A stretch of DNA of 64,000 nucleotides from an uncultured Bacteroidales bacterium (GTDB lineage Bacteria > Bacteroidota > Bacteroidia > Bacteroidales > Bacteroidaceae), in the NCBI GenBank assembly GCA_902779845.1, contig CACZCZ010000014.1:17704-81703 (forward strand), in the 5' to 3' direction. Of this stretch, positions 4,377 through 64,000 are shown piece by piece. A program made the translations under genes and the position numbers. Numbering within the stretch: the stretch's first letter is position 1; each line of letters starts with the position of its first letter. The notes beneath the pieces were generated by a model. The model saw only the letters and a list, made by a program, of their open reading frames with translations, had not been told where the DNA came from and searched no databases.

Positions 4377-4384
4377 ACAAATCC

Positions 4385-5919: not shown

Positions 5920-5924
5920 CTTTC

Positions 5925-6106: not shown

Positions 6107-6114
6107 TCTGGCCT

Positions 6115-6585: not shown

Positions 6586-6589
6586 TTAT

Positions 6590-6788: not shown

Positions 6789-6828
6789 CGTGTTTTCATG
6801 AGGCCAGAGGTGTCGCAGGAAAGGATGC

Positions 6829-9412: not shown

Positions 9413-9447
9413 GTTGTGTATAGTTTAAAGTTGAAAGTTTAAGGGGG

Positions 9448-10119: not shown

Positions 10120-10279
10120 ATTGATAATGATAATGGATTGATCCAACTTTATGAATTAGACGGCAGATGCAATAGAAAAGTTGCAGACCGCGGACATTTT
10201 TTAGGAATGCTCTCACCCTCTTTCTCACTCTAATGACCACACGCTCATACATATATAATAAGGTACGCGTGCGGAGGAT

Positions 10280-11377: not shown

Positions 11378-11483
11378 GTGTTAAATGGGGTATTTTTACC
11401 GCAGAATGCGTGCAAAGATAAAATGTTTTAAGGAAATAGACAAATTTCAGGCATTGAAAAGTGCAAGTTGTCATCTTTATTGC

Positions 11484-11492
11484 TATCTTTGC
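11484..11492 (+). promoter_or_regulatory. -7 element TATCTTTGC for the purine nucleoside phosphorylase operon
   Basis: Matches the Bacteroidetes TAnnTTTG consensus and lies 34 bp before the chosen start codon of the phosphorylase gene. Confidence 0.6.
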
Positions 11493-11526
11493 AACGAAAA
11501 GACGCAAAAAATCATTTTTTTCGCTT

Positions 11527-14515: not shown

Positions 14516-14528
14516 CACAGCCCTTTGT
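14498..14528. terminator. Bidirectional hairpin terminator between lpxK and sppA
   Basis: A near-perfect inverted repeat (acaaagggctgtgtc / gacacagccctttgt) spans the lpxK stop codon and lies 18 bp from the sppA stop. The genes converge here, so it probably serves both. Confidence 0.85.
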
Positions 14529-14545
14529 CCTCTATCGCATTGCTT

Positions 14546-24063: not shown

Positions 24064-24117
24064 ATCGGCGGCAAAAATACAAAGAAAAGCTGTACTTTTG
24101 TCACAGAATTCCAAAAA

Positions 24118-35285: not shown

Positions 35286-35912
35286 TTAACATGAGTCCGT
35301 TGTGTTCATTGTCTGCTGCAATCGTTCCAGAAAGAGGGCGGCTTGGCGGCCATCGAACTGGGAGTGATGGAATTGGAGGGAAATCGTCAGCGTGGTTCTG
35401 AACCAACGCCGTTTGTATCTGCCCCATACGAGGAAGGGGTTGTTGTAGATGCCGTTATATTGGTTGATGATGCAGTCAAGTTCCGTGCCCACTACGGCCG
35501 ATGTCCCGATAATCATGGCCTCGTCGTCATTGATGTCCCTGCAAGTGGTAGCCGACTCCTTCGTAAGCTTGTCATAATCACGAGCGAACTGCTGCAGGTC
35601 GTCGCTGTAGGGAACATCGCAGTTGCTGATGCCGCCTTGCACGTTATCGACAATCACATTGATGCCCAGCCGGTCATATTTGAACAACTTGCCATCCTTG
35701 GGCAACAGGTAGAACTCTGGAATCTGACTGGCAGCCTTGCCTATGCACCAGCACAGGAGCATGTTGAACTTCAGCCCTTGCCTCCGGCTCGCCCGTCGAA
35801 GGCGCGTGACGTCAAAGGTCTTGACGAGCGTCACCATCGGCATCGGCGACTTCATCCACAGTTCGAAAGCCAGTGCGCGACTGGTCTGTTTGGGGTCGAT
35901 TTCCTGTTTCAT
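35286..35912 (-). CDS. Chloramphenicol acetyltransferase-like acyltransferase
   Basis: About 208 residues with the CatA fold signature: catalytic LQFHHSQFDGRQAALFL (HHxxxDG) near the C-terminus and the N-terminal TLVKTFDVTRLRR. CatA-like proteins in Bacteroidales are often chromosomal and not proven resistance enzymes. Start chosen at 35912; 35951 is also in frame. Confidence 0.85.
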   Translation of the reverse strand: MKQEIDPKQTSRALAFELWMKSPMPMVTLVKTFDVTRLRRASRRQGLKFNMLLCWCIGKAASQIPEFYLLPKDGKLFKYDRLGINVIVDNVQGGISNCDVPYSDDLQQFARDYDKLTKESATTCRDINDDEAMIIGTSAVVGTELDCIINQYNGIYNNPFLVWGRYKRRWFRTTLTISLQFHHSQFDGRQAALFLERLQQTMNTTDSC

Positions 35913-36029
35913 CTTAATACAATGTCTGGCCTCTTTCTCCGTTTCGAGCATGAAGCCGCTATGGAGTATGTAGGTCCGTTTCTTTTTTCTTTCTCTTACT
36001 TCAAAACAATAATATCACTCCAACGAGTC

Positions 36030-45076: not shown

Positions 45077-47236
45077 GTGAAAGAAGACAGTCTCTGGCAT
45101 AGAATCGTGGAACAGGTGTTCAAGAAGAACCTGTCCCTGACGCTAATCATCATTGCAGCACTGCTGTTGGAATTGACGACGGCCGTGATGTACTATTCAG
45201 CGCAAGACATTATCTATGCAACGAAGACACGTCTGGTGAAGCAGGAGATGAACAGCGCGGCCATGTCCATTCGCAAGCAGTTGGCCAAGGTGGAAGCCAC
45301 CATCAACAACTATGCCTGGGTTGTGAGCGGCGACGTGGAGAAGTCCGAGTGGCTGTTTGAGACATCGCGACAGCTGCTGGACCACAACCCCTTCCTGCTG
45401 GGTTGCGGCGTTGCCTTCAGGCCCGATTTCTATCCTAAGAAGGGACGATGGTTCGAGCCCTATGCCGTACGGCGGCCTGATGGCCACATTGAGTCGATGC
45501 AGTTGGGTTCGATGCACCACGACTATTCGCAAAAGGAATTTTACGCGTTCACTTTGGAGAACGACAGCGACCACTGGAGTGAGCCCTACATAGACATGGA
45601 GGGAGCGCAGATGGTGGTGACGACCTACTCCTCGCCCGTACACGGTCTCCAAGACAGCAGCATCATCGCTGTGGTGTTCGCAGACATATCGCTGGAATGG
45701 CTGAAAGACTTGATGGACTACGCCGACGGCTACGCTTCGACACAGCGTTTTCTGATTTCGCGCAACTATGCGCTTCTGGCCGGTGAGGAAGATTCCCTCT
45801 ACCACGCTATCCTCCATCAGATAAAGGAAGACAAGAGTGGGCAGGGGTATTTCACGATGGAGAATGAGAAAGAGGGGAAACAGCATGTGTTCTATTATCC
45901 CGTGGGCGGCATCACAGGATGGCAACTGATTTGCGTGTGCAGCGACGAAGAGGTCTTCGGGACGCTGCGTCATGTGCGGCGCACGCTGCTATCCCTAGTC
46001 CTGGCGGGCCTGATGTTGATTGGGTTCATCGTGTGGCGCACATCGCGCAACCTGGAGCGTCTGCACGAAGTGAATGCCGAGCAGGAGCGCATCGGCGGCG
46101 AATTGCGCGTGGCGAGTCGGATTCAGCAGACCATGCTGCCGCGAAGCCATCTGCAGGACGACGACGTAGAGCTGTGCGGCTGCCTGGTTCCGGCCCGTGC
46201 TGTGGGCGGCGACCTGTATGACTACTTCACCCGCGACGGCAAGCTGTTCTTCTGCATCGGCGACGTGAGCGGCAAAGGACCTGCCGCAGCGATGCTGATG
46301 GGTGTTACCCACGCCCTGTTCCGTGCGTTCTCGTCCCACCAGCAAAACCCTGACAAGATCATGAAAGCCATGAACGAGGCCTCATGCCAGGGCAACGACT
46401 CGAATATGTTCGTGACGCTGTTTATCGGCGTACTCGACCTGCCTACGGGACGCCTGAGGTACTGCGATGCAGGACATGATGCGCCGATCGTGGTGGGCAC
46501 GGGGGCCCTGGAATGCAACCCGCATCTGCCCATCGGCGTGTTCGACGGAGTGAACTACACGATGCAGGAGACGGTGCTGGAAGAGGGTGCGACGCTGTTC
46601 CTCTACACCGACGGCGTGACAGAAGCGAAGAACGAGGCGCGACAACTGTTCGGACTGGAGCGCACGGAAGCGGTGCTGCAGCGCTGTGCTGCGGCCCAAC
46701 TGGGACCGAAGGAGATCCTGGAGGCCATGGGCGACGAGGTACGCCGCTTTGTAGGCAGTGCCGAACAGAGCGACGACCTGACGATGCTGGCCATCCGCTA
46801 CACGCCCCGGCATTTTGAGAGCAGACTGACGGAGGCGCTGATGCTGAAGAACGATGTACATGACGTGGTGAAGCTGAGCGCATTCATGAAGTCGGTCTTC
46901 GAACAGCTGGAGATAGAGCCGACACTGGCCAACCAGCTGCGTCTGGCTGTCGAAGAGGCCGTGGTGAACGTGATGGACTACGCCTACGCCATCGGCATCG
47001 AAGGCTACATCGAAGTGCGTGCGCTGTCCGACGGACAAAGCCTGAAGGTGGTCATCATCGACAACGGCGTCCCCTTCGACCCGACAGCCAAGGACAAGGC
47101 CGACATCACGCTCTCTGCCGAGGAACGCCAGATTGGCGGCCTGGGCATCTTGCTTGTACGCGATCTGATGGACAGCATCAACTATGAGCGCATTGAAGGA
47201 AAGAATATTCTTACACTGATAAAAAGAATCAAATAA
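45077..47236 (+). CDS. Membrane sensor SpoIIE phosphatase fused to an RsbW-like ATPase
   Basis: 719 residues. TM1 (about 19-42), a dCache-like extracellular sensor (about 45-295), TM2 (about 303-322), a PP2C/SpoIIE phosphatase (about 345-590; VGGDLYDYF with Asp379/Asp382, DVSGKGPAAA at 396, DDLTML at 566) and a C-terminal HATPase (about 595-719; AVEEAVVNVMDYAY with Asn631, IIDNGVPFDP, GGLGILLVRDLMD). Phosphatase and anti-sigma-type kinase in one chain would dephosphorylate and phosphorylate the STAS partner encoded 22 bp downstream. The signal is unknown. The start codon at 45077 is read as GTG. Confidence 0.9.
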   Translation: MKEDSLWHRIVEQVFKKNLSLTLIIIAALLLELTTAVMYYSAQDIIYATKTRLVKQEMNSAAMSIRKQLAKVEATINNYAWVVSGDVEKSEWLFETSRQLLDHNPFLLGCGVAFRPDFYPKKGRWFEPYAVRRPDGHIESMQLGSMHHDYSQKEFYAFTLENDSDHWSEPYIDMEGAQMVVTTYSSPVHGLQDSSIIAVVFADISLEWLKDLMDYADGYASTQRFLISRNYALLAGEEDSLYHAILHQIKEDKSGQGYFTMENEKEGKQHVFYYPVGGITGWQLICVCSDEEVFGTLRHVRRTLLSLVLAGLMLIGFIVWRTSRNLERLHEVNAEQERIGGELRVASRIQQTMLPRSHLQDDDVELCGCLVPARAVGGDLYDYFTRDGKLFFCIGDVSGKGPAAAMLMGVTHALFRAFSSHQQNPDKIMKAMNEASCQGNDSNMFVTLFIGVLDLPTGRLRYCDAGHDAPIVVGTGALECNPHLPIGVFDGVNYTMQETVLEEGATLFLYTDGVTEAKNEARQLFGLERTEAVLQRCAAAQLGPKEILEAMGDEVRRFVGSAEQSDDLTMLAIRYTPRHFESRLTEALMLKNDVHDVVKLSAFMKSVFEQLEIEPTLANQLRLAVEEAVVNVMDYAYAIGIEGYIEVRALSDGQSLKVVIIDNGVPFDPTAKDKADITLSAEERQIGGLGILLVRDLMDSINYERIEGKNILTLIKRIK

Positions 47237-47258: not shown

Positions 47259-47561
47259 ATGAATGCAAAAATTGAAGAGATGGATGGCAAGTTCGTTGCC
47301 ACTTTAGACGGAGAAATGGACACCGCAGCCGCCTTGGAGGTAGAAGAGATCCTGAAACCGCTCTACCAGAGCAACGGCAAGGACGTGATTATTGACTGCA
47401 AAGGTCTGGAGTATATCGCTTCCAGCGGCCTGCGCATCCTGCTCAGCATTCTGAAGGGCGCTAAGGCGACAGGCAGCAAGGTGACCTTGAGCAACGTGAA
47501 CGACGACATCAAGAACGTATTCAAGCTGACAGGATTTATCAGCATCTTCGAGTTCGAATAA
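47259..47561 (+). CDS. STAS-domain anti-sigma factor antagonist
   Basis: A 100-residue single STAS domain. GLEYIASSGLRILLSILKGA holds the switch serine (Ser55 or Ser56), aligned with the SpoIIAA/RsbV phosphosite. It is encoded 22 bp after the phosphatase-kinase fusion, its likely partner. No sigma factor is encoded in the window, so the downstream target is unknown and need not be a sigma factor. Confidence 0.93.
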   Translation: MNAKIEEMDGKFVATLDGEMDTAAALEVEEILKPLYQSNGKDVIIDCKGLEYIASSGLRILLSILKGAKATGSKVTLSNVNDDIKNVFKLTGFISIFEFE

Positions 47562-47596: not shown

Positions 47597-47782
47597 CAGG
47601 AAGGTACGGATGTCATGATTCCTGTCGGCGCCATGGGCATGGCCTTGTTCACCGGTTGGTTTGTGCCGAAAGCAAGGTACCAGGGCTCGCGCGTGGCATC
47701 GTTCATCTATCTGGTGATGCTGAGGTGGATTATTCCACTGGCGATTTTGATTATTTTCTTAAATTCGTTGAAATTAATATAA
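47597..47782 (+). pseudogene. C-terminal remnant of an NSS-type transporter
   Basis: The frame reads TDVMIPVGAMGMALFTGWFV, then PKARYQGSR, then RWIIPLAILIIFLNSLK, which matches the last two membrane helices of sodium-dependent NSS/SNF transporters (compare RWVAPLAILAIFIDEL in the intact gene at 22702-24063). The other ten helices are missing. It lies between the STAS gene and NRPS1 and ends 12 bp before NRPS1. Confidence 0.75.
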
Positions 47783-47794: not shown

Positions 47795-50700
47795 ATGAAA
47801 ACCGGGGTATTATCAAAAGTGCAACATGGCATTTATGCCGAATGTGTAGCCCACCAAGGAGAGATTTGCTATAACATTCCTTATCTTTTTGAGCTCGACG
47901 GTAGCCTGGACGAAGCCAAACTGAAAACGGCCGTAGAGAAAACCGTAGCGGCCCATCCGACACTGTTTACACGCATTCACGTGAACGAACAGGGTGATCC
48001 CGTGCAGGCAGTGGACATAGAGCCGTTTACGCTGAACGTAGAGCATGGCGTTATCAACATAGAAGAGGGGACTTTCAACGGTCAGCCGTTGCTTGTGCCG
48101 TTCGACATCAGCCAGGAGCGTCTGTTCCATATCCGGCTGTTGAAAGACGACAAGCATTACTACCTCGTGCCGGATATCCACCACCTGATCGCCGACGCGG
48201 TAACCCTACAGGTGCTGATAGAAGACATCGAGGCCGCCTACAACGGAAAGGCCTTGGAACCCGAGGAGATGACGCTGATGGAGTTCGCCGCAGCAGAGGA
48301 CGAGAAACGCCAGACGCCGGCGTTTGAGGTAAGCAAGCAGTGGTATGCGAAGAACTTCGATTGTGGCGACACGTTCACTCAGCTGAATCCCGACCTGGAA
48401 GGTACGGAACGCACGGAGGCCCATGTGCTTCGCACGATGCATCTGGACCCGAAGAAAGTGGAGGCGTTCTGTCAAGCCAACGGCATCTACAAGACCACGC
48501 TGTTCACAGCGGCATACGCGTATCTGATTGCCAAATACAACAACGAACAGGAGGCACTGTTCACCACGGTGTACAACGGTCGCACGGATAAGCGCCTGCT
48601 TCGCACCGTAGGTATGACCGTGAGGACGCTGCCAGTGTACGCCAAGTTCACCGACGAGACCACGGTGCTCGACTTCCTGAAAGCCGGACAGGAGCAGTTG
48701 ACCGGTTGTCGCGAGCACGACATCTACGCGTTCAGCGACGTGATGGCCGACCTGAACCTGCAGAGCAACTCGCTGTTTACGTGGCGCGGAGACATTTGCC
48801 GCAAGAACCAGTTCCTGGGCACACCTATGCAGTTGGTGCAACTCAGGAATCACACGTTGGAAGTACCGTTCTGCCTGATGGCATGTGCTGCCGACGGTGG
48901 CTACCAGCTCAGAGCAGAGTATGAATCGAACAAATATTCAGAGGCGCTGATCAGCCAATTCATGGAGAGCTACGAAGCCACGTTGGAGGGCTTCCTGAGT
49001 CAGACAAACCTGCGCGACATCTGTATCACCACTGATTCGCAGGCAAAGTTGCTGGACAGCTTCAATGAGACAGATATGCCCTACGACAACACGCAGACTC
49101 TCGTGTCGCTGTTCCGTCATCAGGCACAAGCCATGCCTGAGAAAACGGCGGTGGTATATAAGGACAAACAATACACCTATGCCGAAGTGGACGAGATCAG
49201 TGACCGCATCGCAGGCTTTATTGCCTCGAAGGGCTTGGGAGACGAGGACGTAGTGGCTATCCTGATTACCCGTTCCGAGTGGATGGCGATTGCATCGCTG
49301 GGCGTGCTGAAGGCCGGTTGTGCCTATCAGCCGTTGGACCCGACCTACCCGAAGGAGCGCCTGAACTTCATGACGCAGGACTCAGGCTCGAAGCTGTTGA
49401 TAGCCGACGAGGACCTGTGCTCCATCGTGGACGAGTATCATGGCGACGTTTTGCTGACCCGCGATATCATGGGGCTGAAGGACGTCAAAGACATACAGGA
49501 CGTGAAGGGGCCCAAGCCCGAGAGCCTGTTTACGATGATATACACCAGCGGTTCGACAGGTGTGCCCAAGGGCTGTCAGCTGGAGCAGCGTAACATGGTG
49601 GCGTTCTGCCATGCACACGTACATGCTTTGCATGTGGAAACGGACAGCCGCATCGGTGCGTATGCCAGCTTCGGTTTCGACGCGTCGCTGCAGGAGATCT
49701 GGCCGACATTCATGGTGGGTGCCACCCTGTATATCATCCCCGAGGAACTGCGCTTCGACCTGGTTGCGCTGAACGAATACTTCGAACAGAACGGCATCAC
49801 GCATACGTTTATGACCACGCAGGTGGGCCGTTCGTTTGTGAACGATATCCCCAACCACTCGCTGAAGGGCCTTATCACCGGCGGCGAGAAACTGGCAGAC
49901 GTCACTCCCCCGCCCTACCTGCTGCTGAACGGCTACGGTCCTTCGGAGACCATCTGTTACGTGACATCTTTTGCCGTGAAGGAGAAGATGCAGAACATCC
50001 CCATCGGTAAGGCCATGGAGAATATGCATCTGTACATCATGGATGCCTACGGACACCGGCTGCCTGTGGGCGCTGCGGGTGAACTATGGGTCAATGGTCC
50101 GCAGGTGGGACGAGGCTATCTGAACCGTCCGGAGAAGACCGCTGAGGCCTTCGTGGAATCGCCTTGGGGTCGCTGCTACCGCACCGGCGACATCGTGCGT
50201 TATCTGCCAGACGGAAACATCCAGTTTGTGGGTCGCCGCGACGGTCAGGTCAAGATCCGCGGTTTCCGTGTCGAGCTGACCGAAGTGGAGGCTGTCATTC
50301 GCCAGTTCCCCGGCATCAAAGACACGACAGTGCAAGCCTTCGACGACGAGGTTGGCGGTAAGTTTATTGCGGCATATATCGTTGCAGATAAGAAGATTGA
50401 CATTGACGCATTAAACAACTTCATCATGGACGAGAAACCGCCTTACATGGTGCCCGCCGTGACGATGCAGATAGAGTCCATTCCGCTGAATCAGAACCAG
50501 AAGGTGAACAAGAAAGCACTGCCCAAGCCCGAGAAGAAAGCCGCTGCGGCCGAGGTGGAGAGCAACGTGCCGATGAACGTGCTGGAGAAAGAAATCCACA
50601 GCATCATCGCGGAGATCATCAACACCGAGGACTTCGGCATCACGACGATATTGGGCTATGTCGGCCTCACCTCCATCATGGCCATCAAGCTGGCCATCCA

Positions 50701-53700
50701 GATCAACAAGCGCTTCGGCGTCACGCTGAACGCGAAGGCCCTGGCCAAGAGCGGCAGCGTACAGAGCATCGAGAACGAGATCCTTACGGCGCTGCTGAGC
50801 GGAACTGCCGCCAAGCCGGAGACAGCCGAGGTGGCACATGCCGACATGAGCAATATTCCGTTGTCGTATGCACAGATGGGCGTCTATGTGGATTGCATGA
50901 AGCAACCCGATTCCACCATCTATAATACGCCGGTCATCGCGCGCTTCCCCAAGAACGTGGACATCCAGTTGCTGTCGAAGTCTGTGGAGACGCTCGTCAA
51001 GACGCATCCCATGCTGCAGGCTCATTTCGGAAGCGCTGGAGCTGACATCATCCAAATCGTAGACACTGCACAACCCGTTGAGATTACCCAGAGCCAGTGC
51101 AAGGAGGCTGACTTCCCGCATTACAAGCTGGAGTTCGTCAAACCGTTCAACCTGAGACAAGGACCACTCTACCGCATCGAGATTGTCACTACCGAAGAGT
51201 GGGTGTATCTGATGATGGATATTCATCACCTCGTGGTCGATGGCGGCTCGTTTGACATGCTGCTGGCACAGCTCTTCGACCTGCTCAACGGCAAGGAGAT
51301 TGAGCCTGAGAGCTTCACCTATGCCGACTTCGTGGCCGCACAGAAAGCCGCTGAGAGCAGCGAGGAATATGCCGCTGCCCGCGACTTCTTCCAGGAGCAT
51401 CTGGGAAAGGTGGAAGGCGTAACGGAAGTGGCGTCCGACCTGACCAATCCGCTGGAGCAAGGCACCGTAGGCTCCATCTACACACCGTTGGATTTCGACG
51501 CCATAGAGACCTTCTGCCGTCAGCACAGTATCTCTCCGGCTCATCACCTGCTGGCTGCCACCTTCTACGCGCTGGCTCGCTTCACCAACAACGAGCAGCT
51601 GTGCATCACGACCATCAGTAACGGACGCTCCGACCTGCGCATCAGCAACACCGTGGGTATGTTCGTCAACACGCTGGCACTGAGTGCACAGATTGGCGAG
51701 CAGAGCGTGATGGAATTCTTGAACGAGACGAGCAAGAACTTCGACGAGACGCTGAGCCACGAAACCTATCCGTTTGCACGCATTGCTGCCGACTATGACC
51801 TCTCGGCAGAGATCATGTTCGCCTACCAGATGGGCATCATTGACGACTATCAGTATAAAGGTCAGACCATTGCCATTGAGAGCTTCGAGTCCGAAACGCC
51901 CAAGTTCCGCATCGCCTTCTTTATACAGAACGACGAGAAGGGACAGCCCAGCATTTGCCTGCAATACGACAATGGCCGCTACAGCCACGACCTAATGCAA
52001 AGCCTGGCGCAGTCCATCAGCAACGCTGCCAATGCCTTCATGAGTAATCCTGATGCAACGCTGAAGAATGTGGTGTTGCTGGATGCCCAGCAGACCGCAT
52101 TGCTCGACAGTTTCAACCAGAACGATGTGCCCTACGACAACACGCAGACCGTCGTATCGCTGTTCCGTCGTCAGGCTGAACTACATCCTGATAACATCGC
52201 CATGGTCTATCACGACGTCCGCCTGACCTATAAGCAGGTCGATGAACAGTCGGAGCGTATTGCCGGGTACGTCCAGTCACTGGGTCTTGGCAACGAAGAT
52301 GTGGTTTCCATTCTGATTCCACGCAGCAAGTGGATGGTAGTGGCATCAATGGGTGTACTGAAAGCCGGTTGTGCCTACCAACCGCTGGATCCCAGCTATC
52401 CTGCTGAGCGACTGAATTTCATGATGCAAGATGCGGGTGCCAAGCTGCTGATTGCTGACGAGGAGCTGCGCCCGCTGGTGGATGAATACCAGGGCAAGGT
52501 GCTCTTTACCAAGGATATCGAAGCCCTGCCGGCTGCCACGAAGCCTGTGCAAGCCAATATCACGCCATCGTCGCTGTTCATCATGCTCTATACCTCAGGT
52601 TCTACAGGTACGCCTAAGGGTTGCCAGCTGGAACATGGCAACTTGGTATGCTTCTGCCACTGGTACCATCGCTACTACGATTTGAAGCCTGAGAGCAAGG
52701 TAGCCGCTTATGCCAGCTACGGTTTTGACGCTTGTATGATGGACATGTACTCCGCCCTGACTTGTGGCGCTGCTGTCTATATCATCGGCGAAGACATCCG
52801 TCTGAACCTGCCCGACCTGAACGACTACTTCAACCGTGAAGGCATCACCCATTCGTTCATGACCACACAAGTGGGCTGTCAGTTTGCGATGAACTTCGAC
52901 AATCATTCGCTGCACCATCTCTCCGTTGGTGGCGAAAAGATACTGCCGCTCACACCTCCTACAGCCTATCAACTCCATAATGGCTACGGTCCTACAGAGT
53001 GTACCATCTTTACGACCACATATCCCATGAAGGAGTTCGAGCAGAATGCCCCCATCGGCAAACCGCTCGACAACTTCCGCCTCTACATCGTTGACAAGCA
53101 GTTCAACCGCCTGCCCCTCGGTGCAGCTGGCGAGCTGTGGGTCAGCGGTCCGCAAGTGAGCCGAGGCTACCTCAACCGTCCGGAAAAGACTGCCGAGACC
53201 TATCTGAAGAACCCCTTCACGGATGAGGCGAAATATGCGCGTGTGTATCGCACTGGCGATATCGTGCGCTATCTCCCCGACGGCAATATACAGTTCGTAG
53301 GCCGCAAGGACGGTCAGGTGAAGATCCGCGGTTTCCGCATCGAGCTGAAGGAAGTCGAGGCCGTTATCCGCGAGTTCCCCGGCATTAAGGACGCTACTGT
53401 CCAGGCTTTCGACTACGAGAAGGGCGGTAAGTTCATCGCGGCCTATATCGTCAGCGACCAGCAGGTGGACATCAAGGAGCTCAACGCCTTCATCGGCAAG
53501 CAGAAGCCGCCTTACATGATACCCTCTGCCACGATGCAGATTGATGCCATCCCGCTCAACCAGAACCAGAAGGTGAACCGCAAGGCATTGCCCGCCCCGG
53601 TTGTCCAGGCTGCCGAGCACGACTACGAGGCACCCGCCACCGAGGTGGAGAAGTTCTTCTGCGACGTCTTCTGCAATGTCCTGACGATGGACAAGGTCGG

Positions 53701-55078
53701 TGCCACCGACAACTTCTTCGAACTGGGTGGCACGTCGCTCATGGTGACCAAGGTCATCATCGAGGCCGACAAGGCTGGCTACCACGTTATCTATGGCGAT
53801 GTGTTCACCCATCCAACGCCGCGTTTGCTGGCTCAGTTTGTGAGTGGCGAAACTCCCACTGAGGATTCAGATGTCGAATATACCAACTTTGACTACACCG
53901 GCATCGATGCCATCCTGCAGCGCAACACGGTGGAGACGTTCCTCAAGGGCGAACGCCAGCAGCTGGGCAATGTTCTCCTCACCGGTGCCACCGGCTACTT
54001 AGGCATCCATGTGCTACGCGAGCTCATCGACAGCGATGCCACCACCATCACGTGTCTCGTGCGCGGCAAGGATCAGGCTTCCGCAGAGCACCGCCTCAAG
54101 AACCTGCTGTTCTACTATTTCGAGTCATCGTTCAAGGAACTCTTCGGCACCCGCCTCTTTGTCGTCAACGGCGACGTGACACAAGACTTCACAGAAATTG
54201 TAAATTGTAAATCGTCAAATTGTCAAATTAATACCGTTTTCAACTGTGCCGCCAACGTGAAGCACTACTCCAAGGGCACGGACATCGAGGATGTGAATAT
54301 CGGCGGAGCACAGCGCTGCGTAGAGTTCTGTCTGAAGACCGGCGCCCGACTGGTGCATATCTCCACAACCTCCGTGGGCGAGATATGGATTATCCATAAC
54401 GACGGTGAACAAGTGCCCACGTTGGACGAGCGCAAGTTGTGGTTTGGACAGTTCCTCGACAATCGCTACATCAGCTCCAAGTTCCTTGCAGAGCGTCTGG
54501 TGCTGGATGCAGTGGCTCATCATGGTTTGAGTGCCAAGGTAATGCGAGTGGGTAATCTCGCACCACGCAGTTACGACGGCGAGTTCCAGGCCAACTTCAA
54601 CAGCAACAGTTTCATGGGACGTCTCAAGGTGTTCTACACACTTGGTTGCTGCCCCTACGACCAGTATGGCGAACCAACAGAGATGTCGCCCATCGACCAG
54701 ACGGCGAAGGCTGTGGTGCTCCTCGCATCGACGCCCAAGGAATGCACCGTCTTCCAACCCTTCAACGACCACACTGAGCTGTTGGGCGATGTCCTCCAGC
54801 TCTTGGCGAAGGTGGGTCGCGAGATGCGCTTTGTGGAGGATGAAGAATTCGAGCAGACCATCGCCATTGCCGGACAAGACCCCGAGAAGGCCAAACTGCT
54901 CTCAGCCATTCTGGCCTACCAGGATGTTGCCCACGGACAAAAGGCCGCCATCATCGAGCGCGACAACCGCTACACCTGCTCCATCCTCCACCGCCTCGGC
55001 TTCCACTGGAAAGACACCTCGTGGGACTACGTCGATCAGATGCTGACCGCCATATCAGGGTTCGGTTTCTTTGAATAA
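47795..55078 (+). CDS. Dimodular nonribosomal peptide synthetase, C-A-T-C-A-T-R
   Basis: 2427 residues. C1 (1-430; HHLIADA 129-135, so the last Gly of HHxxxDG is Ala), A1 (about 430-925; YTSGSTGVPKG 583, FGFDASLQEIW with the binding Asp 629, NGYGPSE 712, YRTGD 795, Lys903), T1 (Ser960 in GLTSIM), C2 (1025-1440; HHLVVDG 1144-1150), A2 (1445-1935; YTSGSTGTPKG 1599, FDACMMD 1644), T2 (Ser1981 in LGGTSLM), R (2040-2427; GATGYLG 2064, YxxxK Tyr2225/Lys2229). All active sites are intact. There is no epimerase, methyltransferase or thioesterase, so release is by NADPH reduction to an aldehyde. The first domain being C implies an acyl or aminoacyl starter supplied in trans. By-eye pocket residues: A1 D-A-Q-T-I-G-G-C-Y-K, A2 D-A-M-S-S-G-G-I-F-K; substrates not assigned. 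Confidence 0.93.
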   Translation: MKTGVLSKVQHGIYAECVAHQGEICYNIPYLFELDGSLDEAKLKTAVEKTVAAHPTLFTRIHVNEQGDPVQAVDIEPFTLNVEHGVINIEEGTFNGQPLLVPFDISQERLFHIRLLKDDKHYYLVPDIHHLIADAVTLQVLIEDIEAAYNGKALEPEEMTLMEFAAAEDEKRQTPAFEVSKQWYAKNFDCGDTFTQLNPDLEGTERTEAHVLRTMHLDPKKVEAFCQANGIYKTTLFTAAYAYLIAKYNNEQEALFTTVYNGRTDKRLLRTVGMTVRTLPVYAKFTDETTVLDFLKAGQEQLTGCREHDIYAFSDVMADLNLQSNSLFTWRGDICRKNQFLGTPMQLVQLRNHTLEVPFCLMACAADGGYQLRAEYESNKYSEALISQFMESYEATLEGFLSQTNLRDICITTDSQAKLLDSFNETDMPYDNTQTLVSLFRHQAQAMPEKTAVVYKDKQYTYAEVDEISDRIAGFIASKGLGDEDVVAILITRSEWMAIASLGVLKAGCAYQPLDPTYPKERLNFMTQDSGSKLLIADEDLCSIVDEYHGDVLLTRDIMGLKDVKDIQDVKGPKPESLFTMIYTSGSTGVPKGCQLEQRNMVAFCHAHVHALHVETDSRIGAYASFGFDASLQEIWPTFMVGATLYIIPEELRFDLVALNEYFEQNGITHTFMTTQVGRSFVNDIPNHSLKGLITGGEKLADVTPPPYLLLNGYGPSETICYVTSFAVKEKMQNIPIGKAMENMHLYIMDAYGHRLPVGAAGELWVNGPQVGRGYLNRPEKTAEAFVESPWGRCYRTGDIVRYLPDGNIQFVGRRDGQVKIRGFRVELTEVEAVIRQFPGIKDTTVQAFDDEVGGKFIAAYIVADKKIDIDALNNFIMDEKPPYMVPAVTMQIESIPLNQNQKVNKKALPKPEKKAAAAEVESNVPMNVLEKEIHSIIAEIINTEDFGITTILGYVGLTSIMAIKLAIQINKRFGVTLNAKALAKSGSVQSIENEILTALLSGTAAKPETAEVAHADMSNIPLSYAQMGVYVDCMKQPDSTIYNTPVIARFPKNVDIQLLSKSVETLVKTHPMLQAHFGSAGADIIQIVDTAQPVEITQSQCKEADFPHYKLEFVKPFNLRQGPLYRIEIVTTEEWVYLMMDIHHLVVDGGSFDMLLAQLFDLLNGKEIEPESFTYADFVAAQKAAESSEEYAAARDFFQEHLGKVEGVTEVASDLTNPLEQGTVGSIYTPLDFDAIETFCRQHSISPAHHLLAATFYALARFTNNEQLCITTISNGRSDLRISNTVGMFVNTLALSAQIGEQSVMEFLNETSKNFDETLSHETYPFARIAADYDLSAEIMFAYQMGIIDDYQYKGQTIAIESFESETPKFRIAFFIQNDEKGQPSICLQYDNGRYSHDLMQSLAQSISNAANAFMSNPDATLKNVVLLDAQQTALLDSFNQNDVPYDNTQTVVSLFRRQAELHPDNIAMVYHDVRLTYKQVDEQSERIAGYVQSLGLGNEDVVSILIPRSKWMVVASMGVLKAGCAYQPLDPSYPAERLNFMMQDAGAKLLIADEELRPLVDEYQGKVLFTKDIEALPAATKPVQANITPSSLFIMLYTSGSTGTPKGCQLEHGNLVCFCHWYHRYYDLKPESKVAAYASYGFDACMMDMYSALTCGAAVYIIGEDIRLNLPDLNDYFNREGITHSFMTTQVGCQFAMNFDNHSLHHLSVGGEKILPLTPPTAYQLHNGYGPTECTIFTTTYPMKEFEQNAPIGKPLDNFRLYIVDKQFNRLPLGAAGELWVSGPQVSRGYLNRPEKTAETYLKNPFTDEAKYARVYRTGDIVRYLPDGNIQFVGRKDGQVKIRGFRIELKEVEAVIREFPGIKDATVQAFDYEKGGKFIAAYIVSDQQVDIKELNAFIGKQKPPYMIPSATMQIDAIPLNQNQKVNRKALPAPVVQAAEHDYEAPATEVEKFFCDVFCNVLTMDKVGATDNFFELGGTSLMVTKVIIEADKAGYHVIYGDVFTHPTPRLLAQFVSGETPTEDSDVEYTNFDYTGIDAILQRNTVETFLKGERQQLGNVLLTGATGYLGIHVLRELIDSDATTITCLVRGKDQASAEHRLKNLLFYYFESSFKELFGTRLFVVNGDVTQDFTEIVNCKSSNCQINTVFNCAANVKHYSKGTDIEDVNIGGAQRCVEFCLKTGARLVHISTTSVGEIWIIHNDGEQVPTLDERKLWFGQFLDNRYISSKFLAERLVLDAVAHHGLSAKVMRVGNLAPRSYDGEFQANFNSNSFMGRLKVFYTLGCCPYDQYGEPTEMSPIDQTAKAVVLLASTPKECTVFQPFNDHTELLGDVLQLLAKVGREMRFVEDEEFEQTIAIAGQDPEKAKLLSAILAYQDVAHGQKAAIIERDNRYTCSILHRLGFHWKDTSWDYVDQMLTAISGFGFFE
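54195..54231 (+). repeat. Octamer repeat in frame inside the NRPS1 reductase domain
   Basis: The codons for EIVNCKSSNC are built from aaattgta/aatcgtca words. Thirty bases match the copy in NRPS2 (56856-56897) with one difference, and the words match intergenic tracts at 5925-5960 and 36790-36823. Confidence 0.8.
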
Positions 55079-55100
55079 TAGACCTCTAAAAATTTCCTAG

Positions 55101-58100
55101 ATGCAAACCTACCCCCTGCTCCAATCTCAATTAGGTGTCTTCTATGATTGCCTGAAGTACCCGCAGGTGATGCAGTACAACATCCCGGGCATCATCACAT
55201 TAACCGATGATATCGACCTCGACCGCGTGGAACGTGCCGTGCAGGCCATCTTTGCCGCACGCCAGGAGCTACGCCTGCGCTTCCTCATCGATGACAGCGG
55301 CGAGCCGCGACAGTATGTCGATGACGCCAAACAGCTGACCATCGTTCGGCGCCAGATGACGGAGGCCGACTTCCGCCAGTATGCCTATCACGGCTTCTGC
55401 CGCCCGTTTGATATCATGGGCGAGGAGCCGCTGGTGCGCGTGGAGCTCGTGATGACCACTGAAGGGCCGCGTTACATGCTGTTTGACATCCAGCATTTGG
55501 TGTCCGACGGCACGGGCTACCTGAAGCTCTTCCCCCAGCGCGATCTGCCCTTGGCCTACGAGGGTAAGCCGTTGCCCACGCAGGAGTATGGTATCTTGCA
55601 AGCAGCCGAGGAAGAGGCAGCTGCCATCGGCAATGAGGAATACGAGCGCGCCAAGGCAGTGATGACAGAGAAATACGCTGGCGTGGACTTGGCAACGCTG
55701 TCCGATCAGCCTGCGAATCCGGTGGGTGAGATGGGACAGGAGTCAGCCTATATCAACCGTGCGATGGTGGATGATTGGTGCCAGGCCAACGGCTTCGCAC
55801 CCTATCAGCTATTCCAGGCAGCGTTTAGCTACGTGGTGGCCCGCTTGCTGCGCGAGGAGAAGGTGGCCTATACCACCAGCTACCACGGGCGCCACGACCC
55901 GCGACTCAAGCAGGCCTACGGTATGTTCGTACGTACACTTCCTTTTATGATGGAAATCAAGAAGGGGGAAAACGTTCGCGAGTTCATTGCCGACATACGC
56001 CGGGAGATGAAGGACACGCTCTCGCAGTGGGCCTACCCCTTCTCGCACTTCTGTCGCGACCTGGGCATGCAACCCGGCATCTCGTTCAGCTTTACGGCGC
56101 TGCCCGATTGGGAGGAGGTCTATCATTTCGGCGAGACATCTTGTCCGCTGGTGCAGCCGGATCGTGGCGACGTTTTTTACGATATGCTGGCTCATATCTA
56201 CCTGGCAGGTGAGGACTACGACATCCGCATGGAGTCCAGCCTGGCCGTGAACAGCCGCAAGCAGATGCGGTTGGTGGCCGATGCCATCAAGGCCACGATG
56301 GAGCAGATGATGGCGCAGCCCGATGCGGACATCAACAGCATCAGCATCGTCAGCGACGAGGAGGCTGCGCGGCTGATAGAATTGGGCAGGGGAAAGGACA
56401 TCGATGTGGATCTGAGCAAGACGTTTGCCAACCTCTTCACCGAACAGGCTCTGCGCACGCCCGATGCCCCCGCTGTCGTGGACAAGGACAGCCAGCTGAC
56501 CTACGGCGAGATGGACCGCTATTCCAATGCGCTGGCTCACCAGCTCATCGACTTCGGCGTGCAGCCCGATGACTTCGTATGCGTGATGCTCGACCGCGTC
56601 AAGGAGTTCCCGTTGGCCGTGCTCTCCATTCACAAGGCCGGAGCAGCCTACACACCCCTGGACTTCGAATACCCCAACGAGCGTCTCCGCTATATGCTCG
56701 AGAACTCCGAATCAAAAGTCCTGATTACTACTCACGACGTCCTTGAAGCCAAACAGGCCGAGGGCGACTTCAGCACCGCTGCCGCCAAGCCCTTCTTCAT
56801 CGACGACTTCATGACCACTGTGGTCGGCGGTTTCCCCGCCGACGTCATGCCAAATGAAATTGTAAATGGTAAATCGTCAAATTGTAAATCAATTGACTTG
56901 TCCCGTCCCGACGGCCTCGCCTACATGATTTACACCTCCGGCTCCACCGGCAAGCCGAAGGGCGCCATGCTCCATCAGGCCGGCTTGCGCAACTTCATCG
57001 CCGTGGTCATCGATATGGAGAAGTTGACCGCCGATGACCGCATCAGCGGCCATCGCTCCTTCTCATTCGACGCGCATATCGAGGATATGTACCCCGTGCT
57101 GACGCTCGGAGGCTCCTTCCACATCATGCCCGCGGAGATTCGCAAGGACCTGGCCGCAATACGCCAGTTCCTCATCGACCACCGCTGCACGGGTGGCGGC
57201 TACTCGACAGCGATGACCAGCCTCCTGCTCAACACCTTCGACGACCTCCCCATCCGATTCACCACGGGTGGCGGCGAGAAGATGGACGGCGTCTATAGCG
57301 ACCATATCGAAATCATCAATGTTTATGGTCCCACGGAATGCACCGATGACACCTCGTACTATAGCATCGCCCCGGGCTGCCGCGTAGAGAATATCCCCAT
57401 CGGACAGAGCGTGGCCAACAACTGGAACTTCATCGTCGATACGGCCGGCAACCTCGTGCCGCAGGGCGTAGCGGGTGAGTTGTGCTTCGCTGGCATTCAA
57501 GTAGGGCGCGGCTACTGGCGACTGCCCGAACGCACAGCCAAGTCGTTCGTTGACTGCCCCTTTGTGAAGCAGGACCGCTGGGGACACCCCGTCCAGATGT
57601 ATCACACGGGCGACCTCTGCCGCTGGAACGATGAGGGACAGATAGAATATCTTGGACGCATCGACACGCAGGTGAAGCTGCGCGGTTTCCGCATCGAACT
57701 TGGTGAGATTGAGAGCAAGGCCTTGAACATCGAGGGCATCCGACAGGCTGCCGCCGAAGTTCGCAAGGTGCAGGGCAATGAGCACCTGGTGCTCTACTAT
57801 ACAGTGTCTGATGGTTCACCCATCGGAGAAGATGACATCCGCGCCTCCCTCGCTGCCTCCTCGCTGGCTGAATACATGGTGCCTGATGCCTATGTGCAGA
57901 TGGATGTCATGCCCATGACGCCCAACGGCAAGATCAACCGCAAGGCATTGCCCGCCCCCGAGATGAAGCGCTCCGCCGAGTATGTAGCTCCCGTGGGCGA
58001 AACAGAAGAACTCTTCTGCAGCATCTTCTCCGACGTGCTGAAGATTCAGGAGGTAGGCGCCACCGACAACTTCTTCGAGATCGGCGGCACCAGCATCAAC

Positions 58101-59498
58101 GCCATCAAGGTCATCGTCGAGGCCAGCAAGCACGGTGTGCAGATGGTGTTCAACGACCTTTTCAACCTGAAGACCCCGAGGGCGCTGGCCGCAAGCCTCA
58201 CCCCCGACCCCTCTCCAAAGGGCGAGGGGAGTGAACACACTCAAGAGCAGAATCTATCTACTCCCCTCTCTATCGGAGAGGGGTCGGGGGTGAGGCTTCT
58301 TCTTGCGGCCAATACGCTCGACCATTTCCTCAATGGCAAGCGTCTGGCTATTGGCGATGTCCTGCTGACAGGTGCCACCGGCTATCTCGGCATCCACATC
58401 CTCAACGAACTGCTCACGAACTTCCACGGGAAGATTCTCTGTCCTGTCCGTGCGAAGGGAGACAGCGAAGCGCTGAGCCGCATCAAGACCCTCTACTTCT
58501 ACTATTTCGGCCGTACTGAAGCCTTCGACCATTTCGACGAGCGCGTCAAAGCCTTCGCCGCAGAAGTCACCGAGGCCAATGCCCTCAGTGTGCTCGACAA
58601 TTCCCCCGCCAATGCCCCCAGTGTGCTCGACGGTTTTCCCGTCGAGCCCCTAACCGTCGTGAACTGCGTCGCCAACGTGAAGCACTTCTCTGCCGGCAAT
58701 GACATTGAGATGGTGAACATCGAGTCTGTGCGCCATCTCATTACCTTCTGCCTGCGCACCTCTTCGCGTCTGATACACATCTCCACCAACAGCATTGCCG
58801 GCATCAGCATCGACAACGTGCCTGGCCCCGAGGTCAAGCTGACGGAGCAGGACTTATACATCGGTCAGAACATCGATGCCAACAAGTATGTCTTCTCAAA
58901 GTTCAAGGCCGAGGAACTGGTGCTCGACGCCATCGCCCACCACGGCTTGAATGCGAAAATTATGCGCGTGGGCAACCTCTCAGCCCGCCAGAAGGACGGC
59001 GAGTTCCAAATCAACTTCAACACCAACAACTTCCTGGCTACGTTGCGGGCCTACGTGGTATTGGGCATGGTGCCTTACGCTGCCCTCGACCAGCGTTTTG
59101 AGTTCTCGCCCATCGACGAGGTGGCTCACGCCATCATGTTGTTGGCACAGACGCCGCAGGAGTGTGTCGTCTTTCACCCCTACAACACCCACCGCCAGTT
59201 CCTCAGCGATATCCTAATGGGCTTTGCTGAGGCAGGCATCTCGCTGAAGCGTGTGGAAACAGACATCTTCCAGCAGGCCTTGGAGAAGCTGACGGAAAAT
59301 CCCGACCTCATCACCCTGCTACGTCCGCTGATGGCATACGACATGGGCGGTAAGCATACCACGCGCTGGATAGAATCTACCAACGACTACACCACACAAG
59401 TCCTCTATCGCCTCGGCTTCCAGTGGCCTCCCACTGCTGCCGACTACGTCCACCGCTTCGTGGATACCATTGTGGGCTTCGACTTCTTCAAGGTCTGA
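55101..59498 (+). CDS. Monomodular nonribosomal peptide synthetase, C-A-T-R
   Basis: 1465 residues, 22 bp after NRPS1. C (1-430; QHLVSDG 131-137, the first His is Gln but the catalytic second His stays), A (about 440-960; YTSGSTGKPKG 611, FDAHIED 656, INVYGPTEC, YHTGD, NGKINRKALP), T (Ser998 in GGTSIN), R (about 1080-1465; GATGYLG 1091-1097, Tyr1263/Lys1267). By-eye pocket D-A-E-G-T-G-V-D-D-K does not resemble a code I know. Three repeat-derived insertions interrupt it: in A (about residues 586-599), in the T-R linker (1033-1066) and an 11-residue tandem duplication in R (1159-1180). The frame stays open, so the protein may still be made. The product would be an N-acyl amino aldehyde. Confidence 0.92.
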   Translation: MQTYPLLQSQLGVFYDCLKYPQVMQYNIPGIITLTDDIDLDRVERAVQAIFAARQELRLRFLIDDSGEPRQYVDDAKQLTIVRRQMTEADFRQYAYHGFCRPFDIMGEEPLVRVELVMTTEGPRYMLFDIQHLVSDGTGYLKLFPQRDLPLAYEGKPLPTQEYGILQAAEEEAAAIGNEEYERAKAVMTEKYAGVDLATLSDQPANPVGEMGQESAYINRAMVDDWCQANGFAPYQLFQAAFSYVVARLLREEKVAYTTSYHGRHDPRLKQAYGMFVRTLPFMMEIKKGENVREFIADIRREMKDTLSQWAYPFSHFCRDLGMQPGISFSFTALPDWEEVYHFGETSCPLVQPDRGDVFYDMLAHIYLAGEDYDIRMESSLAVNSRKQMRLVADAIKATMEQMMAQPDADINSISIVSDEEAARLIELGRGKDIDVDLSKTFANLFTEQALRTPDAPAVVDKDSQLTYGEMDRYSNALAHQLIDFGVQPDDFVCVMLDRVKEFPLAVLSIHKAGAAYTPLDFEYPNERLRYMLENSESKVLITTHDVLEAKQAEGDFSTAAAKPFFIDDFMTTVVGGFPADVMPNEIVNGKSSNCKSIDLSRPDGLAYMIYTSGSTGKPKGAMLHQAGLRNFIAVVIDMEKLTADDRISGHRSFSFDAHIEDMYPVLTLGGSFHIMPAEIRKDLAAIRQFLIDHRCTGGGYSTAMTSLLLNTFDDLPIRFTTGGGEKMDGVYSDHIEIINVYGPTECTDDTSYYSIAPGCRVENIPIGQSVANNWNFIVDTAGNLVPQGVAGELCFAGIQVGRGYWRLPERTAKSFVDCPFVKQDRWGHPVQMYHTGDLCRWNDEGQIEYLGRIDTQVKLRGFRIELGEIESKALNIEGIRQAAAEVRKVQGNEHLVLYYTVSDGSPIGEDDIRASLAASSLAEYMVPDAYVQMDVMPMTPNGKINRKALPAPEMKRSAEYVAPVGETEELFCSIFSDVLKIQEVGATDNFFEIGGTSINAIKVIVEASKHGVQMVFNDLFNLKTPRALAASLTPDPSPKGEGSEHTQEQNLSTPLSIGEGSGVRLLLAANTLDHFLNGKRLAIGDVLLTGATGYLGIHILNELLTNFHGKILCPVRAKGDSEALSRIKTLYFYYFGRTEAFDHFDERVKAFAAEVTEANALSVLDNSPANAPSVLDGFPVEPLTVVNCVANVKHFSAGNDIEMVNIESVRHLITFCLRTSSRLIHISTNSIAGISIDNVPGPEVKLTEQDLYIGQNIDANKYVFSKFKAEELVLDAIAHHGLNAKIMRVGNLSARQKDGEFQINFNTNNFLATLRAYVVLGMVPYAALDQRFEFSPIDEVAHAIMLLAQTPQECVVFHPYNTHRQFLSDILMGFAEAGISLKRVETDIFQQALEKLTENPDLITLLRPLMAYDMGGKHTTRWIESTNDYTTQVLYRLGFQWPPTAADYVHRFVDTIVGFDFFKV
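56856..56897 (+). repeat. Octamer repeat in frame inside the NRPS2 adenylation domain
   Basis: Encodes EIVNGKSSNCKSID between GFPADVMP and LSRPDGLAYMIYTSG, just before the A3 core. Same orientation, same frame and nearly same bases as the copy in the NRPS1 reductase domain. Confidence 0.8.
58196..58295. mobile_element. 100-bp palindromic element inside NRPS2
   Basis: Perfect 21-nt inverted ends (58196-58216 and 58275-58295), an inner inverted pair gaggggagt/actcccctc, and no ORF of its own. It is translated as LTPDPSPKGEGSEHTQ through LSIGEGSGVRLL, between the carrier and reductase domains. I recall LTPDPSPxGEG-type peptides as translations of a widespread intergenic palindromic repeat. Confidence 0.85.
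58575..58640 (+). repeat. 33-bp tandem duplication in the NRPS2 reductase domain
   Basis: Two copies (58575-58607, 58608-58640), encoding ANALSVLDNSP and ANAPSVLDGFP. The second copy runs into a ctcgacgg/ccgtcgag hairpin (about 58626-58646). Confidence 0.8.
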
Positions 59499-62961: not shown

Positions 62962-62964
62962 TAT

Positions 62965-63109
62965 CTCTTAAACATTAAACATTAAACCCTCAACCATAAA
63001 CCCTTAACCATAAACCCTTAACCATGAACCTTAGCCCCAAGAACCCTCAACCCTTAACCCTTCACCCTTAACCCTTAACCATAAACCCTTAACCATAAAC
63101 CCTCAACCC
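62965..63109. repeat. Telomere-like ccctta/accata heptamer array
   Basis: About 20 near-tandem copies of aaccctt, aaccata and aaccctc words between the GHMP kinase gene and a tiny upstream ORF. Confidence 0.85.
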
Positions 63110-63190
63110 TTAACCCTCAACCCTGGCGTTGATGCCCATGCCCGGCGCCAGCCCGAAGGGCTTCTTGGCATACTGTTTTTTATTTTCCAT
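63110..63190 (-). CDS. 26-codon ORF ending in the heptamer array (possible gene remnant)
   Basis: Begins MENKKQYAKKPFGLAPGMGI and ends NARVEG; the last four codons and the stop come from the repeat array. PFGLAPGMGINA resembles the PFALAPGMGLNA motif of AzgA-type purine permeases, though in them it is not at the N-terminus. A minus-strand -7 element TACTTTTGC lies just before the ATG (63195-63203). It may be the start of a truncated gene. Confidence 0.35.
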   Translation of the reverse strand: MENKKQYAKKPFGLAPGMGINARVEG

Positions 63191-63254
63191 GCTGCAAAAG
63201 TACAAAACTATTCTATAATTCCCATCATTTTTTAAGGTTTTTCATAATTATTAC

Positions 63255-63475
63255 CATTTTTCCTGCATCCTGAATCCTGAATCTTGAATCTATTTATTAT
63301 TTATCATTTATCATTTATCATCTATCATTTATCATTTATTCCCTCATCCTTCATACATCGCACCTCATCCCTCAGCCTTCATACATCGCACCTCATCCCT
63401 CATCCTTCATTCGTCATTCGTCATTCTTCATCCCTCATCCCTCATCCCTCATCCTTCATCCCTCATCCTCCTCCC
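63255..63475. repeat. Arrays of atttatc, catccct and cattcgt heptamers
   Basis: Three successive heptamer families with near-perfect seven-base periodicity and no promoter or ORF of weight. Confidence 0.85.
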
Positions 63476-63489
63476 CCTTCCTCCATTCT

Positions 63490-64000
63490 AACCGCAAAGG
63501 CACAGAGGAACAAAGGCCGGTCCTGTTGTCGTCATAATCCTGAAGTACAGAAAGCCGCATGAATGGCGCTGCGCGCAAGCATTCATGCTAGGCGAAGGAC
63601 ACAGAGGGCTGCGCGATGAATCTTGAATCCTAAATCTGTCGTCCATCGTTTTCGTTAAACTTCTTAAACTCTTACCCCCCCCCCCTTGAACCGCGCGACA
63701 GCGCTTGAATCTTGAATCCTGAATCTTGAATCCTGAATCTTGAATCCTGAATCCTTAACCCTTAACCCTTCACCCTTAACCGAAGTACGCCTTCATCCTT
63801 CCTCCCTCCTCCCTCCTCTGTGACCTTCGCCTAAGCCAAAACCCGCGTAGCGTTTTGGCTGACTCTCCGTACAAATGAATGCGAGAGGACAGGCCTTTGT
63901 CCCTCTGCATTCTATGTTAAATTCCTAGAGATTTTCTGTTTTTAACTATATATTTAACACTTCTTTTATCAAGCCGCCTTAATTGCAGTATAATAATCAA
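63490..64000. other. Gene-free right end with inverted arms and hairpins
   Basis: Contains a hairpin gcatgaatg/cattcatgc (63557-63588), a gaatctt heptamer array (63700-63755), a hairpin agccaaaac/gttttggct (near 63834-63860) and a hairpin gaatgc..agagg/cctct..gcattc (63877-63912). Segments at about 63495-63605 and 63815-63912 are imperfect inverted copies (shared words aggcgaagg, cacagagg, acaaaggcc). No coding region is seen up to the window edge. Confidence 0.6.

Follow-up and report, generated by a model that had tools for sequence, protein, structure and literature searches.

We analysed a 64,000-nucleotide stretch (the window) of contig CACZCZ010000014.1 from an uncultured Bacteroidales bacterium (assembly GCA_902779845.1), in which two adjacent genes, NRPS1 and NRPS2, encode nonribosomal peptide synthetases (NRPSs) composed of condensation (C), adenylation (A), carrier (T) and terminal reductase (R) domains. 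Both genes are full length and lie head to tail on the same strand, 22 bp apart, and the three Condensation matches found in the whole genome (2.92 Mb in 47 contigs, ~86% complete) all fall inside them. Directly upstream is a SpoIIE/STAS gene pair that was overlooked in the initial annotation of the window and that belongs to an operon conserved among relatives in the Prevotellaceae. Coordinates are collected in Table 1.

Table 1 Genes, domains and other features of the NRPS locus (window coordinates; A-domain codes are approximate)
Feature	Coordinates	Strand	Description
SpoIIE phosphatase–RsbW-like HATPase fusion with PDC sensor	45077..47236	+	719 aa; putative membrane sensor switch
STAS anti-sigma-antagonist-like protein	47259..47561	+	100 aa; ASSGL phospho-serine motif at residue 54
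NSS (sodium:neurotransmitter symporter family) C-terminal remnant	47615..47782	+	55 aa; between STAS and NRPS1
NRPS1	47795..55078	+	C-A-T-C-A-T-R, 2427 aa, intact open reading frame
NRPS1 C1	47795..49084	+	HHLIADA
NRPS1 A1	49097..50539	+	code D-A-Q-(F/M)-I-G-G-C-Y-K
NRPS1 T1	50567..50794	+	GLTSI
NRPS1 C2	50846..52105	+	HHLVVDGGS
NRPS1 A2	52142..53599	+	code D-A-M-(F/M)-S-G-G-I-F-K; best solved match linear gramicidin synthase A
NRPS1 T2	53636..53854	+	GGTSL
NRPS1 terminal R	53912..55075	+	IST...YISSK; closest solved 6vtj
NRPS2	55101..59498	+	C-A-T-R, 1465 aa, intact open reading frame
NRPS2 C	55101..56375	+	QHLVSDG
NRPS2 A	56418..57965	+	code D-A-E-(G/Y)-T-G-V-D-D-K
NRPS2 T	58008..58193	+	GGTSI
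NRPS2 T-R linker, palindromic repeat read in frame	58194..58297	+	SLTPDPSPKGEGS...LSIGEGSGVRL
NRPS2 terminal R	58308..59495	+	IST...YVFSK; closest solved 6vtj

Domain architecture and predicted release chemistry

Pfam matches agreed with the domain orders and positions given in the initial annotation: NRPS1 has two Condensation, two AMP-binding, two PP-binding and one NAD_binding_4 match, NRPS2 has one of each, and no thioesterase family was among the matches of either protein, as had been claimed. Both proteins thus show the modular C, A, T order, the terminal R domain with catalytic triad and GATGYLG motif, and the lack of a thioesterase that mark a reductase-terminated NRPS. The two R domains align over nearly their full length with the solved NRPS reductase 6vtj (E = 2.6e-66 for NRPS1 and 3.2e-54 for NRPS2) and, at lower significance, with 4f6c (E = 4.8e-31 and 6e-25), the R domain of AusA, the aureusimine/phevalin NRPS of Staphylococcus aureus. 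Aligned with these structures, both retain the Thr-Tyr-Lys triad (IST/YISSK and IST/YVFSK), the loss of which had been named as a reason to abandon the prediction. Reductive release, predicted earlier as giving an aldehyde or else an alcohol or cyclic imine, is well supported by these alignments.

We propose an aldehyde because AusA and the minimal synthetase ATRed release aldehydes, according to the available parts of the papers describing them (PMC12153313, PMC7586950). The R domains might instead reduce twice and release alcohols, since both outcomes are known for such domains (PMC7586950, in the part available). However, AusA, the nearest named family, is described in its available source as releasing an aldehyde, and we regard alcohol release as improbable.

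From a search of 399 genomes of the family, 20 NRPS1-type loci (L050–L069) were fetched as picks from the high-ranking matches, so that the synteny counts given below are biased towards close relatives. The NRPS2 set comprises 16 loci: the window, L034–L045 (12 loci), L047, L048 and L081. A distant match (L049; 27% identity over residues 803–950) was left out, a chimera (L046) was counted as such rather than as an orthologue, and L036 and L056, which are one contig, were counted once. Genes were picked as longest open reading frames; this masked STAS genes, which were retrieved by tblastn, and in L048 an antisense frame masked the NRPS2 fragment, the C and A motifs of which were left unread. 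The NRPS2 of L047 ends within the A domain, where the sequence is cut.

The initial annotation had all condensation, carrier and reductase residues in place. This holds for the three carrier serines, both R triads, and the second His and the Asp of the HHxxxDG motif, which are kept in all three C domains; the second His is the catalytic one. The consensus itself, however, is broken in two of the three, by Ala for Gly in C1 of NRPS1 and by Gln for the first His in NRPS2. Among the 20 NRPS1-type loci, HHxxxD is present in every C1, and the Gly is also missing only in L055. Among 13 NRPS2 relatives (L034–L045, L047), HHxxxDG occurs in 12, and QHxxxDG only in L034, the nearest orthologue. Solved relatives of the C domains gave mixed matches and no class, starter or LCL. 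N-capping by NRPS1 or NRPS2 is unproven, and the presence of a first C domain is not proof of it.

If C1 does not acylate, NRPS1 would make a dipeptide aldehyde without a cap, and this would cyclise to a dihydropyrazinone or pyrazinone. The aldehyde made by AusA cyclises and oxidises in this way (PMC12153313, in the part available). The AusA equivalog NF047350 is the best NCBIfam match of NRPS1, at a score below its cut-off of 2500 bits (1326.7 bits; 576.2 bits for NRPS2), and the altered HHLIADA motif in the window also fits a C1 that does not acylate. However, the AusA order A-T-C-A-T-R has no first C domain, and C1 of NRPS1 aligns with the internal C domain of AusA (positions 996–1313) rather than with its N-terminal part. 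In addition, the HHxxxD kept in all 20 relatives makes C1 look used. We consider the uncapped product unlikely, although it is the most credible of the alternatives discussed here.

Comparison of the A domains with solved relatives showed general similarity only, greatest to linear gramicidin synthase A. The NRPS2 code D-A-E-x-T-G-V-D-D-K is identical in the window, in 12 of 12 orthologues read (L034–L045) and in the second module of L046. Glu and Asp at such pocket positions are typical for basic residues, and with Glu at code position 3 and Asp at positions 8 and 9 the NRPS2 domain may activate a basic residue; this is a weak guess.

NRPS2 beside and within other synthetases

The initial annotation called it unusual for two separately released lines to lie next to each other. 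Such pairs are indeed rare: an NRPS1-type gene lies directly upstream of NRPS2 in three of the 16 NRPS2 loci, namely the window, L036/L056 and L041, with an AMP-ligase-like gene in between in L041. They are nevertheless recurrent, and reductase NRPSs are common, with 57 of the 399 genomes matching NRPS2 at E ≤ 1e-100, mostly because other proteins, often of NRPS1 type, contain similar modules. Twelve of the 16 loci, including that of the nearest orthologue, L034, have no NRPS1-type gene directly upstream, and one (L045) has too little upstream sequence to be judged.

Adjacency on one strand with a 22-bp gap would also be expected of a single joined line, in which the NRPS1 dipeptide is passed to the C domain of NRPS2 to give a leupeptin-like acyl-dipeptidyl aldehyde, perhaps with a basic residue at its end. 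The Glu and two Asp of the NRPS2 pocket accord with this, as does L046, in which an NRPS2-type ending follows an NRPS1-type first module in cis. However, the complete reductase domain of NRPS1 would release the dipeptide first, and most NRPS2 genes are unpaired. Moreover, the three pairs differ in the code of the second NRPS1 module (DAM.SGGIFK, DAQRRGCVAK and DMKRMGTVSK), which speaks against a dedicated hand-over. A joined line is therefore improbable, and two separately released lines, as first annotated, are the better reading.

The L046 protein (6875–14272, 2465 aa) is a natural chimera of an NRPS1-type C-A-T-C and an NRPS2-type A-T-R. Through C2 it is 49–67% identical to NRPS1 by domain; beyond that, most of its A-T-R matches NRPS2 at 75–97% identity, falling to 40–68% in the surroundings of the T domain and linker. 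The crossover, close to residue 1440 at the C/A border, indicates that the NRPS2 ending is an exchangeable terminal unit. Exchange is also apparent within the NRPS1-type line. Across the 26 long NRPSs compared, identity to NRPS1 is 48–67% for C1 and 65–73% for A1, with L041 and L068 lower, and the second module is of two main kinds. In the first kind, for instance with code DAM(M/I)SG.IFK, A2 is 73–91% identical to that of the window; in the other, with code DAQRRGCVAK, A2 is only 32–37% identical, yet T2 and R are still 58–67% identical. The nearest relative of NRPS1 is that of L067 (67–91% identity by domain), and no NRPS2 lies beside it.

We conclude that NRPS2 stands as a gene of its own and that purifying selection acts on it. 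The ratio of nonsynonymous to synonymous substitution rates (dN/dS), computed against seven orthologues, is 0.147 for L034 and 0.06–0.10 for the other six. For the C domain, which has Gln for the first His in both the window and L034, the ratio between these two is 0.085. The A domain is 86–90% identical in the relatives measured and is the most conserved part of the protein except in comparison with L034. The 15 relatives left in one search after removal of L049, the chimera L046 among them, are assigned to Prevotellaceae, Prevotella, Bacteroidaceae, Bacteroidales or Muribaculaceae. The rumen, reticulum or omasum is named as origin for five, and we take RUG genome names to stand for rumen.

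The T-R linker of NRPS2 is a long inverted repeat with a predicted energy of −82 kcal/mol for 144 bases. Its 20-base arm occurs at 50 genomic sites with up to two mismatches, and the reversed control pattern at none; a different repeat pattern gave no sites in the genome. A similar peptide, STPLLHREGTGVGL, stands in the linker of the L039 orthologue, and such repeats may thus land repeatedly in NRPS linkers. Separately, the R domain of NRPS1 (54194–54238) and the A domain of NRPS2 (56856–56900) share a short repeat, GAAATTGTAAAT.GTAAATCGTCAAATTGT, translated in frame as EIVN.KSSNC. At window positions 62962–64000, short and degenerate repeats resembling CCCTTAACC and CATCCTTCAT abound.

The SpoIIE/STAS operon and its export genes

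The SpoIIE-type protein encoded upstream of NRPS1 matches SpoIIE (165 bits), HATPase_c_2 (87 bits) and MCP-like_PDC_1 (63 bits), with intact phosphatase motifs (GGDL/GDVSGKG/YTDG/SDDL) and an intact kinase N-box (EAVVN). Its PDC sensor is flanked by hydrophobic segments, one around residue 19 and the other around residue 304. The adjoining STAS protein matches Pfam STAS (61.9 bits) and scores above the cut-off of NCBIfam TIGR00377. Three parts of a partner switch are therefore present: a SpoIIE-type phosphatase, an RsbW-type kinase and a STAS antagonist with a phospho-serine motif. Within the operon, to which this look for a target of the switch was limited, no gene was recognised as encoding a sigma factor.

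The usual gene order in the 20 NRPS1-type loci is SpoIIE, STAS, outer-membrane barrel, NRPS, (AMP-ligase-like gene), MATE, (phosphopantetheinyl transferase, PPTase). SpoIIE and STAS are both present in 18 of the 20, the exceptions being L059 and L067, and flank the NRPS gene on opposite sides in L068 and L069. The barrel is alginate-export-like (PF13372) and occurs in 15 loci, MATE in 13, PPTase in six, the AMP-ligase-like gene, which scores below the Pfam AMP-binding cut-off, in four, and a sodium:neurotransmitter symporter (NSS) gene in two. In the genome of L067 (G014), a SpoIIE-STAS pair with a STAS protein 78% identical to that of the window is found on another contig (L091), and the switch is thus present in trans. 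A lone NRPS2 in L035 lies between a divergent SpoIIE-STAS pair (STAS 69% identical) and a barrel gene. As a separate observation, the STAS protein of L036 (872–1174, on the same contig as L056) has ASNGL for ASSGL, so that the presumed phospho-serine is replaced.

STAS proteins at least 61% identical to that of the window occur in 30 of the 399 genomes, two of them as partial matches, and the next full match is 56% identical. The STAS gene is beside an NRPS gene in 25 of these 30: 15 of the 20 fetched loci, the window, L082, L092–L094, L095, L096, L099, L101 and G340, the last counted by match coordinates. In one further genome (G271) the contig ends after the barrel gene, and in four (G014, G081, G185 and G145) no NRPS gene is beside the STAS gene, with NRPS genes elsewhere in G014 and G185. 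An NRPS match was found in 26 of the 30 genomes with this STAS type and in 31 of the 369 others (Fisher p ~5e-21, uncorrected for kinship and treating both draws of 399 genomes as the same set). Four STAS-bearing genomes without an NRPS match might seem to disprove the link. We rejected this for G271, because of the contig border, and for G356, where the start of an NRPS gene adjoins the SpoIIE-STAS pair; G081 and G145 remain exceptions. The L082 locus (genome G313, 1212–16137) is of a different build: a SpoIIE-STAS pair is followed by a 3032-aa NRPS that appears to start with an A domain, without C1, and then by a 1073-aa NRPS-like protein.

The window keeps the SpoIIE-STAS pair and has neither barrel nor MATE gene beside the NRPS genes. 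Given how often both occur in the relatives, the absence of an exporter is a peculiarity of this locus. The earlier statement that MbtH, PPTase and exporter are missing from the window agrees with our searches. MbtH was not found anywhere in the genome, no exporter was recognised among the 31 window open reading frames scanned with Pfam, a subset of those in the window, and a 199-aa PPTase of the ACPS family is encoded on another contig (C9). MATE genes lie on contigs C2, C36 and C10, and a barrel paralogue, 52% identical, on contig C22.

Between STAS and NRPS1 lies an NSS-like reading frame, which we rejected as a complete gene, since it encodes only a 55-aa tail. It is identical at 38 of 54 positions (70%) to the C-terminus of a 451-aa NSS protein (PF00209) in L058, the complete gene for which sits at the equivalent position, with STAS on one side and NRPS on the other. 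The window also has an NSS symporter gene of full length (22702–24114, −; PF00209, 470 aa), 23 kb upstream of the remnant. Elsewhere in the window, 12 kb upstream, a protein with an HHSQFDG motif (35286–35951, −) presumably resembles the chloramphenicol-acetyltransferase fold.

The NSS remnant, the missing MATE and barrel genes, the two altered C motifs and the repeat inserted in the NRPS2 linker could together reflect a cluster that is decaying and makes no product. However, both NRPS reading frames are full length. In addition, the low dN/dS of NRPS2 against L034, and of its C domain in particular with Gln in both, argues for continued selection, and the barrel paralogue, MATE and PPTase genes elsewhere in the genome could serve the cluster. 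Decay is, in our view, the least probable of the alternatives.

Proposed mechanism and relation to known systems

We favour the explanation, with considerable room for doubt, that a Prevotellaceae operon family centred on an NRPS with a reductase ending includes this locus as a derived member. Two independent reductive-release lines probably share one putatively sensor-controlled operon. The membrane protein, with its PDC sensor, SpoIIE phosphatase and RsbW-like kinase, would set the phosphorylation of STAS and thereby control the operon. NRPS1 would link a pair of probably hydrophobic amino acids, perhaps with prior N-acylation by C1, and its R domain, judging from the family, would free the thioester as a dipeptide aldehyde, either capped or cyclising. 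NRPS2, a separate gene presumably acquired beside NRPS1, would acylate one amino acid, probably basic, and release an amino aldehyde, the two lines working independently. In relatives the product may leave through the MATE pump and outer-membrane barrel; without these beside the NRPS genes, the window genome would rely on genes elsewhere. As a tentative and less secure generalisation, we suggest an operon class under its own extracellular-sensing SpoIIE/STAS switch, with no sigma factor in the operon, that diversifies by terminal A-T-R swaps and in which the basic amino-aldehyde ending represented by NRPS2 moves between alone, paired and fused states.

Several points weigh against these proposals. 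We know of no product for any member of this NRPS family. With C1 lacking the Gly and the NRPS2 C domain lacking the first His, capping could be impaired in the window. The A-domain pocket codes are approximate, with positions set by sequence landmarks rather than by a curated predictor, and dS is near saturation in six of the seven NRPS2 pairs. Upstream and downstream lengths differ among loci, which makes absences beside the short L047 and L048 weak evidence. The NRPS-linked STAS proteins are not one clean class: identity to that of the window is only 48% for the operon of G260 (L063) and 45% for that of G294 (L069), and the STAS of the G263 operon (L068) did not reach the threshold of the search. 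Finally, SpoIIE/STAS paralogues adjoin a ~600-aa permease, which we take to be SLC13-like, in L083, L084, L088, L089 and L090, and the switch is thus not an NRPS-only device. In these loci STAS lies within the fetched stretch (L083, L089, L090) or 1–3 kb upstream, outside it (L084, L088). We rejected NRPS specificity for the SpoIIE family as a whole, since other copies lie beside the permease or elsewhere (L085, L086); the permease-linked copies suggest that transport-linked partner switches are more widespread in the family.

In the open-licence PMC literature we found no paper linking a SpoIIE/STAS partner switch to an NRPS, and none on this Prevotellaceae reductase-NRPS family, which the available part of a paper on Bacteroidetes natural products does not describe. 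A survey of rumen biosynthetic gene clusters reports 5,346 NRPS clusters, expression of Prevotella NRPS genes, and differential expression of such genes between steers of differing feed efficiency (PMC8241843, in the part available). Its main text, as far as available, contains neither 'aldehyde' nor 'reductase', and no product for these genes was found in the same open-licence literature. A reductase-NRPS family with a conserved sensor switch and export genes offers, in ruminants, defined loci at which to look for aldehydes that inhibit proteases, together with a regulator candidate and natural examples of module swaps with visible crossover points.

Reductase NRPSs and partner switches are each already known, and the chemistry is of the AusA/gut-aldehyde kind; the link between SpoIIE/STAS and NRPS appears to be unreported in open-licence papers. 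For both R domains the closest solved structure is 6vtj, presumably a Methanobrevibacter ruminantium NRPS reductase, a comparison that covers the reductase region only. Guo et al. 2017 reportedly described 47 clusters from the gut whose reductase NRPSs yield dipeptide aldehydes and pyrazinones. The reductase ending and predicted dipeptide aldehydes are shared with our locus, and a host-associated habitat with several of the NRPS2 relatives, in a comparison by description only, from citing passages. NRPS1 resembles AusA, of the AusAB system, in being dimodular with a terminal reductase and in its similarity over most of the protein, and the companion PPTase of AusAB has counterparts beside six of the 20 NRPS1 relatives. 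It differs from AusA, given as A-T-C-A-T-R in the available source, by the added C1, which has no match in the AusA N-terminus. NRPS2 resembles ATRed, the minimal A-T-R synthetase of Xenorhabdus indica, in being a single module ending in R, but ATRed has no C domain and its free amino aldehydes dimerise to a pyrazine (PMC7586950, in the part available). The upstream pair resembles SpoIIE/RsbW/STAS partner switches, with phosphatase, kinase and STAS parts and their motifs in place, and differs from them in that phosphatase and kinase are fused in one sensor protein and the neighbouring genes encode an NRPS and export functions.

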